Shown: piece after piece, positions 746-28,233 of the stretch
Layout of the letters: every line of letters begins with the position of its first letter
How positions within the stretch are numbered: position 1 is the first letter of the stretch
Assembly (NCBI GenBank): GCA_963855995.1
Contig: OY979720.1
Span: forward strand, 16,264,430 to 16,328,429
Origin: Muricea muricata
Taxonomy: Eukaryota > Cnidaria > Anthozoa > Malacalcyonacea > Plexauridae
DNA length: 64,000 nt
Direction of reading: 5' to 3'
Program-made: the position numbers and the translations under genes
Notes under the pieces: model-generated
What the model was told of the DNA's origin: nothing
Seen by the model: only the letters and a program-made list of their open reading frames with translations
The model's database searches: none

Positions 746-2101
746 GTTATTGGATCACAAAAGGATCCAGTAAGATCTTGTATGGATGTTACAAATTGTC
801 ATGTCCACGATGGCGAATACTGGATTTACGCCCAAGAAACGGATACACACTTGGAGAAAGTATTTTGCTTCGCAGACTCATCTGGAGGTTTAGTAACACT
901 GCATGTTATGTTGTCTTCCCTGCATTTATAAAATCATAAATAATTCATAAATAAAAATATATATATATACTATTTAATGGTAACTTGGTTACAAAAATGT
1001 GATATTTATTTTGGTGTTTTTTCGAAAAACTGCTTTGCAACAACGAAACAAAAATTATTTGCGCTATCTTATTAACTCGAAAATTTGTCTTTTATATATG
1101 GTATATACACACATAGTATAATTATGTGAATGACTGTAACTTACATTCGAGACGAAATGCAAATTCAAAATAACTAGAAAATTATTTGTAAAATATTGAT
1201 AATAATTTGCAATCTATAGAATTTTTGTAGTATAAGAATTGAGTCAAAATTTTAGCATACCTATAACCATTTTCACAGCAAATTTTGATCGGTTTTGGGA
1301 TCTATAGGGATCTATACCGGCTAGTCGAAACCCACACTTATTAAAAGCTGATGTGGAAGTGTCACGTCCACAAATTTAAAATTATAGCTTCAGCACCTTC
1401 ATAAGCCTTCCAGGAAAATTATTTCTATACTTAATAGAAAAATGTTTTCTGTCCATATATAGATTCTGCGAAAAATATTGCTTTAAAAGAACGAACAATG
1501 CAAAGTTCAAATGGATCGAAGGTTCACGGTTCTGCAAGTAATGCTGTTGATGGTAACAGAAATTCAGATTATATGAGGGGTTCTTGCACTCATACGAAGG
1601 TATCGGATTCTCCATGGTGGAGAGTGGATGTAGGAAATGTGGTAAGTGTAAGATGTATGTAATGTGGTTCCAAATGTTGCTGGCCAATATTATTGCAGAC
1701 TGCAAATATTTAAAGTATATCGGTACTGATTAATATGATCATTAGTTAAGATAATTTATAGCTTTCATTAGCCTTTCAGCGAATTTCAGCGAAAAAAAGG
1801 TTTAGTTAAATTATTACAGCATGACGTTTTTGTTTATTTTTCGCAGTACTTCATTCGCAAGCTGATCATCACCAATCGGTCTGACTGCTGTTGGGAAGAA
1901 TTGTCAGATTTTCAAATCAGAATTGGTCTTTCTCTGAATAACAACGGCAACTCGAACCCTTTATGTGGAGGATTTTATTCGCTCAACGCTGGGACCAAGA
2001 CTATCATGTGTCCAAATCCCATGTTAGGAAGTTATGTGAATATTATCATTCCTGGACCTAATCGAACTCTTACTTTATGTGAAGTCGAAGTATATCCTTA
2101 G
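746..2101 (+). CDS. Lectin copy A, 3' part: fibrinogen-like stub plus FTP domain
   Basis: Three exons are visible: 746-887, 1463-1641 and 1847-2101, with phases matching the complete copies downstream (1 then 0). The first encodes the stub with SCMD and DGEYW and ends in CFADSSG. The next two encode an FTP (fucolectin/tachylectin-4/pentraxin-1) domain with [32 protein letters not shown] and the C-terminal [10 protein letters not shown] before TAG. FTP lectins bind fucose-type sugars with calcium and are usually secreted. The signal-peptide and PAN exons seen in other copies are not found in positions 1-745, so they lie off the window or are lost. The donor after the first exon (gtttag) is weak. 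The residue after NRSDCCWE is Glu; the other copies have Arg there, in the sugar-binding RxDx4R motif. Family call is firm; completeness of the gene is unknown. Confidence 0.75.
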
Positions 2102-2195
2102 TACAGCCGTATATAAACCTTAAAGCATGGTAAACTGGCCTTATATCAAAACCATAGCCTAGAAAAGTTACATTATCTTATTGAAATTGTCCCCT

Positions 2196-24810: not shown

Positions 24811-27800
24811 ATGATAAAGTTAACCCAGCCTTATCGCAATGCTATGCTACTCGTCTTGATACAATGTATGCAGCTAGTATTGGCGGAAAATGCAGTTCAA
24901 TGTGATAAGCCCAGAGGATTCCAGTTACTATTCGCAGGTAAATCACTTCAGAAATACGCGCACCCTTTTGAGTTGTTATTCGTGCTGCTTTACTGATACG
25001 TCTGACACAAAAGCATACATGTATAGTAGGCCAAAAGTAATTAATAGTGACTAAAACATCAAGGTAAACTATCATGCACATGCTTTCCAGCCGGTTAGAA
25101 ATTTCAAATTTTTGTCGGGTATGAATTGATGTAATCATGATCAATTTAAACTACACAAAAAGCGGACACTTGCTAATGAGAAATTGAATAAAAACTGTGC
25201 ATTGAGACATGTAAACATATGTACGAGATTAAAAAAAATATAATTAAACCAGTAAAATATATATATATATATATATATATATATATATATATATATATAT
25301 ATATATATATATATATATATATTTATATATATTGTTTATATATATATATATATATATATATATATATATATATATATATATATATATATATATAATTAAA
25401 AAACAATCTATAAAGGTTATGCATGTATTTTTCTATAGAGATTTTTTTCAAGAAAATAATCAGTTATGAAAATAATAAATTTATATATGATGAAACTTTG
25501 ATGATGACCAACTATATAGGACATCACAGCCAACTGTAGGGGATCAACAGCCTTGATATTGTGTTTCCAACTATAAATTAAACGGTGTCCAGCCGGGGCG
25601 CTATGTATACTAACTATATACATCAAACGTTTAGCAAAACAAGGCGGTCAAATTTTAGAAACAAAAATTATTTTAAATACATGTGGCGGTCGTTATGTTG
25701 TACTGAAAAGAAACTGAATGATAAATTATACTTATCTTTAATTTTGAGATTGCAACTACATTATTTTACACCAGCTTTTTGATACAAACAAATTATTTTG
25801 CTATTTTATCTTCATCACCTGCCAAATTTTTAGTTCATAGTTACTTCATGACATGCGGTCTGGAATATTTACTATGTAAGATTTATTCTATTTATTACAT
25901 GTTCTCTCATATCCAAATTTTCAGAGACTGTATTGACAAAAAACGTTATTGCAAGCTACAAGGTAAACTCACATGCCGAATGTTTGATTCACTGTTACGA
26001 AAACAAAGATTGCGTGTCATACAATTATGAGTATGCCCTGAGAGACAACATTGAAGGGGAACTTCGCCTCTGTGAGATTAACAACATGAGAATGAGCTCT
26101 TGTCCGACGCGGGAAGTAAGCAAAGAAGACCATGGTTACTATGAAGCAATAGATAACGAAAAAGAGGTACTCTCTAAACTCTGTGTATGTTTCCTGCATG
26201 TTTTACTTTGCATAAGAAATTTAACATCGCTTTCCCCATTGGACATGTGAAATCAATGTTTAATATTCGTTATTTGTGCAGGTGCCGGTGCGATATTCAG
26301 TGTACCACTTTAGTGATAGCGAAAGGGTAATTCAGATGAATTGGAGGGGGAGAGGGCAAGGTCGAGCGCCGAGTGCGCATCCATCATGGGAGGGAGGGTG
26401 GTCTCTTGGAAATTTTGAAAACAAGAACCTCGGAAAAGCGATTTCCGGCGAGTTAGGCATCGCGTATTGATCCGTGCACAGTTTTAATGACTTTGCAGGA
26501 TTTGGTAACCATACGGTTCAGTATACAGTGCTGTAGGAATCTTCCATCTACGGTGGAAACTGGGGAGAGGCTTCGCGCGGATTGATATTTCCCACAAAAA
26601 TGTTTCCAAGTTTGCCCACATTCTCGAAACGCTTTTTCAGATTTTTCCTCATTTTAAACTGTTCACTATTATTAGTTGTATGGGTCAGAGAAGAATCCTG
26701 GCTTGTCGTGTTTGGATATTCAAAGATGTCATGACAACGATGGTGAATATTGGCTGTTCTCGGAACTAACATTTTGGAAGCTTACAAAAAACTTCTGTTA
26801 CTTGAACACAGCGGCCGGTAAGGATGCATTTAAAGGACAGCTAGTTTATAAAACCAAAATTATTTTAATATTAGCCTGTATTCCTAACACCATATTGATT
26901 GGTAATATCAATTTAAAGTGGCTAATCAAGCTGGTAACTTCACTAAAATCTCCGTGAATGAGGCAAACAGCCCAGTTTGTTTGGATCAAATATTTCACGA
27001 AATAAACGAGATATGAAAAATCTGTGGAGGAAATTTACAGATTTTGATTTTTGTTGCTGGCCATTTCAACTAATTACTGAAAATTTTTTTATTGCCATAC
27101 CGTTTTAAGGGAATGCCTCTGGAACAAACAACGCCGGGTGCTATAATTTCCATAATTTCTCAAAATTAATACTTAATGAGCAAAACACAAAGGAAAACAC
27201 AAGCATATCATTGATAGTACGGTAACAAACGTCCATAAAGTAACTCAACTTTCGTGTCGAATTTCCCGGTGTATTCAAGTTTGATTGAGAAGCAATTTTA
27301 GAACAAGATTGTCATACAAAACACCTTAAAGTGTGCGTAAAAACGCGGCTATAGCATCCTGTTTCAGTTTCAACACGCTTTTCAGTGTCTCATGCGCCGG
27401 CAATTTCTCGTTTATTATATATTGCATGAAACTGTTTCTCTTTCAGGGACCACATTGGTCAACTTGGCTGAAGGCAAACCTGCTGCTCAAATGCAAACGG
27501 CCTTTCATGCTTCAGCGAGCAGAGCTGTTGATGGTGACAGAACTTCCAAGTTCGGTGCTGGTTCATGCACTCACACGCCCAACCCGTTAACATCTCCCTG
27601 GTGGCGAGTGGATTTACAAAATTTGGTGGGTATATACTGAAGTCAAGCCCTCCCCCGTAAAATGTCACCTTACAGACAAAATTTTATCCGTGTTATATGT
27701 ATCAAGAATTGTTCCTTTTCTATGGTACCATTACACCCCAACAGCATTGTTCCATCCTGTTTTCAACAACCTGTCAAAATTCACGACTTTTTCGCCGTGC

Positions 27801-28233
27801 ACTTGTTGCAAATCAGCGGATAAATTAGGGTAAACTGTACACCACCATATATAGTATAATTATTTTCGGGGCAATGACAAAAAATGACTGACTGTATTTA
27901 ATATCTTTAATCATATTTTAGAAAAATAACGGTAGACAAGTTTTTTAGTAGAATGAGATTTGTGCTTATTTTTCGCAGTACTTCATTCGCAAGCTGATCA
28001 TCACGAATCGCTCTGACTGCTGTTGGGAAAGATTGTCTAATTTTCAAATCAGAATTGGTCTTTCTTTGGATAACAGCGGCAACTCGAACCCTTTATGTGG
28101 AGGATTTTATTCGCTCCAAAATGAGACCAAGAGTATCGTGTGTCCAAATCCCATGTTAGGAAGATATGTGAATATTGTCATTCCTGGACCTGATAAAGTT
28201 CTTACTTTATGCGAAGTCGAAGTATATCCTTAG
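24811..28233 (+). CDS. Lectin copy F: secreted PAN-stub-FTP protein with divergent exon 4
   Basis: Exons 24811-24937, 25925-26166, 26676-26817, 27447-27625 and 27979-28233 give 314 codons plus stop, phases 1-0-1-0. Signal peptide (AMLLVLIQCMQLVLAENAV), PAN domain (AECLIHCYENKDC) and stub ([18 protein letters not shown]) match the other copies. Exon 4 is far more divergent (LAEGKPAAQMQTAFHASAS, SCTHTPNPLTSPWWRVDLQN) and closer to textbook FTP sequences. Both flanking introns are also unlike those of C-E; the end of intron 4 (ttatttttcgcag) resembles copy A. Exon 5 is again nearly identical to the rest ([29 protein letters not shown]). This mosaic points to recombination or gene conversion among paralogues. 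Confidence 0.85.
25257..25395. repeat. (AT)n microsatellite in intron 1 of copy F
   Basis: Two AT runs split by tttatatatattgttta. The corresponding intron of copy E has a short AT run at 20575-20595; C and D lack one. Confidence 0.9.

Follow-up and report, generated by a model that had tools for sequence, protein, structure and literature searches.

A tandem array of genes for predicted secreted lectins was characterized in Muricea muricata, in a window (the whole stretch of DNA that was analysed, 64,000 nucleotides) at 16,264,430–16,328,429 of contig 5 (OY979720.1). The genome assembly (GCA_963855995.1; 453 Mb in 74 contigs) was the one assembly analysed, and all gene models were based on sequence. 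Each intact protein (8/8) consisted of a signal peptide, a PAN domain, a short module referred to as the stub and one F-type lectin domain, which was encoded by two exons (F1 and F2). Positions are those of the window unless a contig is named.

With AG/GT exon borders placed, copies A to F were found on the plus strand at the positions given in an earlier note on this DNA. Four of them were intact in the window and had no internal stop. Copy C (6464–10567, 313 residues) was composed of exons for the signal peptide (6464–6587), PAN domain (7942–8183), stub (8685–8826), F1 (9280–9458) and F2 (10313–10567). The corresponding exons of copy D (12716–15812, 315 residues) were located at 12716–12842, 13659–13900, 14415–14556, 14944–15122 and 15555–15812, and those of copy E (20141–23527, 316 residues) at 20141–20267, 21055–21296, 21810–21951, 22416–22600 and 23273–23527. 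In copy F (24811–28233, 314 residues), the signal peptide (24811–24937), PAN (25925–26166) and stub (26676–26817) exons were followed by a divergent F1 (27447–27625) and by F2 (27979–28233). The intron phases were 1, 0, 1, 0 in copies C to F. Copy A showed an unbroken frame across its stub exon (746–887), F1 (1463–1641) and F2 (1847–2101), i.e., over 746–2101, and these three exons agreed with the same phases. It looked partial because the window edge falls inside the gene; its first two exons were found within 2.6 kb to the left (gene start at −2564), and the complete gene was an open frame of 311 residues. Copy B was a dead remnant on the plus strand, namely a first exon with an internal stop (2323–2445) and a PAN stump of 13 codons (3705–3743).

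The array continued 42 kb leftward with units U1, U2, U3, U4 and U5 and a PAN fragment. These were located with the window exons as queries in eleven flanking 10-kb pieces, nine of which lie on the left side, and unit-to-unit comparison revealed first exons of an older type. The whole array comprised 12 units over 70 kb (contig 5, 16,222,669–16,292,662), all in the same orientation within one contig of 18.6 Mb, and there was no N across the 174 kb joined. Judged from sequence, eight of the 12 units were intact (U1, U4, U5, A, C, D, E and F), with open frames of 310, 309 and 309 residues in U1, U4 and U5, respectively. The first exon of U2 was frameshifted, and an arginine replaced one of its lectin cysteines. 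U3 (no PAN exon seen, F1 broken), the PAN fragment and B were dead. The earlier note had counted six copies in a head-to-tail row with identical intron phases: four intact, one dead and one partial. The arrangement, the four intact copies and the dead one held, whereas the partial copy was complete beyond the window edge and the array had 12 units, not six.

In the 48 kb to the left of U1, no match to a window exon was found at E up to 1. Beyond the 3′ end of copy F, at 28274–28891, the final 26–40 bp of F2 (encoding [10 protein letters not shown]) recurred as several degenerate repeats (at about 28300, 28413, 28742 and 28852), and no tandem array was reported there by TRF. The 55 kb to the right of these repeats gave one chance-level exon match only (E 0.9, other strand).

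Domain composition of the encoded proteins

Matches above cut-off to both PF22633 and PF00754 were obtained for 5/5 window proteins and for 9/9 sequences overall (eight copies, A being entered twice). PAN_1 was above cut-off in the four of five window proteins with a PAN exon (C to F) and in 8/8 PAN-bearing proteins overall, with scores of 24.2–27.5 bits and a curated cut-off of 21.4. The PAN/apple domain is characterized by six conserved cysteines, and six invariant cysteines were present in 8/8 proteins. When the PAN profile was compared with solved structures, no convincing relative was found (best E 0.62). For the lectin domain, copies F and C were searched; the best solved match was FBP32 (3cqo, E 1e-62 to 1e-63), and eel agglutinin (1k12) was matched with E values of 2e-32 and 4e-31. 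In these two proteins, the 3cqo and 1k12 alignments covered about 124–142 residues, i.e., the whole F-type lectin domain, which runs over F1 and F2. The signal peptide was recognised by eye, and no later 19-residue stretch had more than 12 hydrophobic residues. The combination of PAN, stub and F-type lectin in predicted secreted proteins, as had been proposed for these genes, was supported. A single-sequence structure prediction for copy C minus its signal peptide had a mean pLDDT (predicted local distance difference test score) of 37 and was not used.

The stub had been described as fibrinogen-like, and this assignment was rejected. A profile of the nine stubs matched procollagen I (1.2e-8) and procollagen III (1.1e-7) more strongly than angiopoietin-1 (0.018), the sole fibrinogen-type structure matched, and the fibrinogen family was absent from the Pfam matches of the nine scanned sequences at E up to 1. 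The 47-residue stub aligned with the first part of the fibrillar-collagen C-propeptide, including C-x5-C, GEYW and FC. Its match to COLFI (PF01410) remained below cut-off in 9/9 sequences (16.4–26.1 bits vs 26.2), and the alignment was partial, at most about 90 of 233 positions; compared with COLFI, the stub corresponds to the first part only.

Three cysteines were invariant in 9/9 stubs. In procollagen, the second of these takes part in an interchain link. From the first PAN cysteine onward, there were 13 cysteines in U1, U4 and U5 and 15 in A, C, D, E and F. Such an odd count in 8/8 intact copies would fit a link between chains, and we infer that the array proteins may be joined by a disulfide of this kind.

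Selection, pocket variation and exon histories

Codon site models were run per exon on exon trees with custom code and naive posteriors for the PAN, stub, F1 and F2 exons. For F2 (nine copies), twice the log-likelihood difference (2ΔlnL) was 18.87 for M1a/M2a (p 8e-5) and 23.60 for M7/M8 (p 7.5e-6). For F1, copy F was left out because it was too distant, and the remaining eight copies gave values of 15.74 and 15.49 (p 4e-4); values of 15.02 and 15.61 were obtained with six copies, and M1a/M2a gave 15.60 with all nine. The estimated omega of the selected class was about 4 to 8. Positive selection was not detected in the PAN exon (nine copies; 2ΔlnL 0 and 1.54, p 1 and 0.46) or the stub exon (nine copies; 0.74 and 0.98, p 0.69 and 0.61). 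In simulations under the M1a null, the observed M1a/M2a value was reached in 0/121 replicates for F2 (maximum 8.1) and 0/127 for F1 (maximum 10.8). Fifteen sensitivity runs were carried out with M1a/M2a. The signal held without U2 in both exons, on 3/3 other exons' trees tried for F2 and on 2/2 tried for F1. When the gapped CDR1 codons were removed from F1, sites 44 and 54 remained. F2 in U1, U2, U4 and U5 alone gave p 0.025, PAN in copies C to F gave p 0.25 and the stub without U2 gave p 1. Hence, the two lectin exons, unlike the PAN or stub exon, appear to be under positive selection, as the earlier note had suspected from the loop changes.

According to eel-agglutinin numbering, the top F2 sites were 82, 83, 85 and 86, which belong to complementarity-determining region 4 (CDR4), about 115–117, and 142. 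The top F1 sites were about 26–30 (CDR1), 44 and 46 (CDR2), and about 54–55. The residues that touch fucose or the next sugars are given in a review as Leu23, Glu26, His27, Phe45, Tyr46, His52, Arg79, Asp81, Cys82, Cys83 and Arg86 (PMC5712786). The selected sites of CDR1, CDR2 and CDR4 fall in loops that correspond to the eel-agglutinin fucose pocket. Ten of the 11 contact residues could be scored, with a mean mismatch of 0.46, and the equivalents of His52 and Arg79 were unchanged in 9/9 aligned copies. The mismatch was 0.57 at 25 loop positions and 0.15 at 104 others, a difference reached in 0/20,000 permutations, with loop limits that were partly set by the analyst, above all for CDR3.

CDR4 was changed between almost fixed flanks. 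It reads RSDCCWER in [11 protein letters not shown] in D; in A it is RSDCCWEE, where the Arg86 equivalent is Glu. The corresponding sequences are RSGNGRKR in U1, RSGWNWRR in U2, RS-LQWQM in U4 and RS-WNWRW in U5. In copy A, F1 contains the cation site, CDR1, CDR2 and the His52 equivalent. CDR1 of copy E is longer by two residues than that of C and D. At the cation motif h2DGx, AVDG precedes D or N in A, C, D, E and F, and K in U1, U4 and U5. The F-type fucose motif is described as His ... Arg-x-Asp-x4-Arg/Lys, with 24 residues from His to Arg (PMC5712786). It was present in C, D, E and F (4/8 intact copies), where the gap from His to Arg was 28, 28, 28 and 27 residues, respectively; the gap in eel agglutinin was 26 by alignment. 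The canonical motif was missing in the other four, with Glu as the last residue in A, no Asp in U1, and neither Asp nor the final Arg/Lys in U4 and U5. The adjacent cysteines that contact fucose occurred in A, C, D, E and F (5/8) and not in U1, U4 and U5. Judged by these residues, C to F have the motif complete and would be expected to bind fucosylated glycans with different neighbours. In A, U1, U4 and U5 it is incomplete, and these copies may recognise other glycans or bind none at all.

The exons recorded conflicting histories. Between the old units (U1, U2, U4, U5 and A) and the young ones (C to F), the synonymous distance in PAN was at least 2.1 and often saturated, whereas in F2 it was 0.05–0.45 (median 0.265, 20 pairs). 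For A and C, PAN was saturated, the stub was at 1.8 and F2 was at 0.05 (Fisher test on rounded counts, stub vs F2, 8e-10). For C and F, F1 was at 2.7 and F2 was at 0.08 (F1 vs F2, likewise on rounded counts, 2e-10). Copy F differed from C, D and E by 0.08–0.51 in the signal peptide, PAN, stub and F2 exons, and by 1.6–2.7 in F1, the latter value being alignment-dependent. In approximately unbiased (AU) tests at default settings, the F2 data rejected the PAN, stub and F1 trees (7e-5, 3e-4 and 3e-5), and the stub data rejected all three other trees. The PAN data rejected the F1 and F2 trees and not the stub tree (0.27), and the F1 data rejected the PAN and F2 trees and not the stub tree (0.051).

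The blocks common to these copies were bounded by the exon. With A and C to F, they extended 10–29 nt before F2 and 2–10 nt after it; with copy F and C, D and E, where F2 was 90–95% identical, they extended 10–15 nt before and 0–2 nt after. The introns beyond the blocks did not align in either comparison. Longer common stretches were present in other pairs, e.g., U2 and A, and U4 and U5. F2 thus resembles an exon-bounded island in otherwise distant copies, such as would remain after gene conversion. Purifying selection alone was rejected as the source of the F2 likeness because the synonymous distances in F2 were low too. Gene conversion that halted where the introns had lost homology is the best account of the conflict between exons.

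Genomic context and related families

The distribution of the three modules was explored genome-wide. The PAN exon query matched nine array places, plus three weakly (2e-4 to 8e-4), and the stub query matched 10 array places, plus three others with E values of 0.12–0.34. Of the 60 places matched by the lectin query, 41 lay outside the array, and the best of these showed 46% identity. With 150 of 447 candidates scored, PAN_1 was present at no fewer than 148 genomic places; PAN is thus greatly expanded in this genome. Seventeen non-array loci (3.2–10 kb) were searched with the array PAN and stub; nine of these were also searched by motifs, and eight were read by eye. At one of them (L001; contig 14, 1788610–1791915), PAN, EGF-like and F-type lectin exons followed each other in this order on one strand; the PAN and lectin exons passed the Pfam cut-offs, and the EGF-like exon was identified by eye, without a Pfam match. 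This locus and the array are alike in PAN and F-type lectin, but an EGF-like exon takes the place of the stub and the lectin lies in one exon. A further lectin match was located 11 kb away. The PAN of L001 was missed by the array PAN query; therefore, other such PANs may be hidden. On contig 8 (about 3.33–3.51 Mb, L040–L042), PAN and PF22633-type exons cluster on both strands, possibly as another expanded family of PAN with F5/8-type domains, and no stub-like motif was found at the three loci examined there. Within this genome, the exact trio of PAN, stub and F-type lectin appears confined to the array. Since PAN and F-type lectin are also paired on contig 14, the array combination is a variant and the pairing is not unique.

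The earlier note had known of no described family with this domain order, and none with PAN, stub and F-type lectin in this order emerged from searches of open-access full texts; the claim is narrowed by the pairing on contig 14. The F-type lectin family is known, and what appears new, as far as the open-access literature searched shows, is a variant of it that has this architecture, forms an array in an octocoral and is variable in CDR4.

Several known systems were compared with the array. The eel fucolectins (Anguilla anguilla agglutinin; A. japonica eFL-1 to 7) have the same domain (1k12, E about 1e-31). In the review's account, CDR1 and CDR2 vary among eel isoforms and CDR4 and the triad are strictly kept (PMC5712786); in the array, unlike those fucolectins, CDR4 is among the most variable parts, and PAN and stub are added. 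Striped bass FBP32 (3cqo) has two tandem lectin domains, unlike the array, and its intron is described at eel position about 123–124, whereas that of the array lies at about 68–69. Cnidarian F-type lectins are listed in Hydra vulgaris with a C-type lectin domain and in Nematostella vectensis with CCP, EGF-like and other domains (PMC5712786). As far as these descriptions go, they are like the array in being joined to other extracellular modules, but the partner domains differ. For the bindin of the oyster Crassostrea gigas, the same review reports positive selection at fucose-pocket sites, a His-Arg-Arg triad kept or lost by isoform, recombination at an intron within the lectin domain, alternative splicing, and few genes with one to five lectin repeats (PMC5712786). 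By this description, the array resembles bindin in its evolutionary mode, i.e., pocket selection with recombination between lectin halves; it differs in having one lectin domain per gene (8/8 intact), with PAN and the hinge formed by the stub, although bindin can also have one.

Other genes were observed beside the array. A glycolipid transfer protein gene with a single open frame (29472–30104; PF08718, 4e-34) adjoins it, followed at 30492–34922 by two or three copies of UbiA prenyltransferase-like frames on both strands, one of which was checked with Pfam. An open reading frame similar to voltage-gated potassium channels (BTB_2, Ion_trans) was located at 39284–40309 on the minus strand. At 48256–50171, a somatomedin B exon preceded one for a secretin-family receptor, and a similar cysteine-rich frame was present at 62187–62456. 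The mitochondrial contig (19.3 kb) carries cox1 and mutS. Mitochondrial mutS is an octocoral hallmark, which identifies the host as an octocoral. Contig 1, a large one, has another cox1-like sequence interrupted by a stop (38414782–38416095), which is probably a nuclear insertion of mitochondrial DNA.

Possible roles of the array

It is fairly probable that this tandem array encodes secreted lectins that are diversifying in glycan recognition, probably in immunity. Unusually fast change in the likely sugar pockets, on a nearly fixed remainder, would be expected if the proteins had to keep up with shifting microbes or partners. Copies would arise and disappear through unequal crossing over, gene conversion would bring the F1 and F2 halves of the lectin domain together in new combinations, and selection would favour new pocket sequences. 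The hinge, which resembles the start of a collagen C-propeptide, would join chains, and the PAN module might dock the lectin to matrix or a partner. The products would be soluble, perhaps disulfide-linked lectins with differing glycan preferences, whose targets may be microbial glycans and, less likely, gamete or self glycans. Some F-type lectins mediate immune recognition according to the review (PMC5712786), and in the octocoral Eunicea calyculata a fucolectin-1 contig is reported among genes for recognition and agglutination whose expression differed in disease (PMC5990752). The immune role was the first choice because of these two reports.

Several points weigh against this view. The immune role is carried over from the F-type lectins of other animals, and the evidence comes from the sequence of one assembly. 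Sugar binding might be absent from copies that lack the pocket residues. The odd cysteine count in all eight copies depends on a guessed end of the signal peptide, and with the signal peptide included, the total was odd in only 3/8 (U1, U4 and C). The selection signal in F2 fell to p 0.019 without the CDR4 codons (13–18), that in F1 fell to p 0.014 without six CDR1 codons (18–23), and F2 in copies C to F plus A alone was not significant (p 0.071). Pooled pairwise pN/pS was 0.66 for CDR4 of F2, below 1, and 0.38 for the rest of the exon. The null simulations were recombination-free, and gene conversion within exons can inflate such tests.

Germline shuffling of half-domains is a bolder and rather doubtful reading, in which the intron that splits the lectin would let conversion recombine half-pockets among some ten tandem genes. 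Individuals would then differ in repertoire under diversifying selection, and the array would be a cnidarian counterpart of bindin for immune or self recognition. Gamete recognition was regarded as the main rival because of oyster bindin. Taken together with colony recognition, it is unlikely; it proposes that pockets diversify since sperm–egg or colony–colony recognition rewards rare variants. Pocket selection, loss of the basic triad in some isoforms and recombination at an intron within the domain form the bindin signature as reviewed (PMC5712786), but bindins are described with one to five lectin domains per polypeptide and few genes, whereas here there is one per gene with PAN and the hinge. 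Moreover, the only octocoral expression hint found, the fucolectin-1 contig, points to disease, and that contig is not known to belong to the array family.

Relaxed constraint, under which the pocket loops would vary because proteins acting as adhesive or matrix parts no longer need to bind sugar, is quite unlikely. It would agree with the four of eight intact copies that have no canonical fucose motif (U1, U4, U5 and A), the three of eight that have no adjacent cysteines (U1, U4 and U5) and the four broken units among 12, but not with the omega of the selected class, the invariance of the His52 and Arg79 equivalents or the conserved scaffold. It is decidedly unlikely that the selection signal was an artefact of gene conversion and gapped-loop alignment. 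The exon histories clash strongly, conversion within exons is possible, and CDR1 and CDR4 contain gaps. However, each exon was tested on its own tree, the signal was kept on the other trees tried, F1 remained significant without its gapped CDR1 codons, and PAN and stub treated alike gave nothing. An array mimicked by unmerged haplotypes or misjoined repeats is highly improbable, for although a single assembly was used and the units share blocks of about 75–95% identity, the old and young units are far apart in PAN synonymous distance, their introns differ, and all lie in one orientation on one contig without N.

To our knowledge, cnidarians are without antibodies, and their recognition of many microbes or non-self is largely open. 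Diversifying, probably immune lectins would bear on this question. The eight closely related, intact-looking genes share a scaffold that hardly varies, and their pockets differ at named residues, so that diversity of recognition can be tested directly. If the interpretation is true, the mode of selection plus recombination described for oyster bindin would occur in a second animal phylum, with another architecture.

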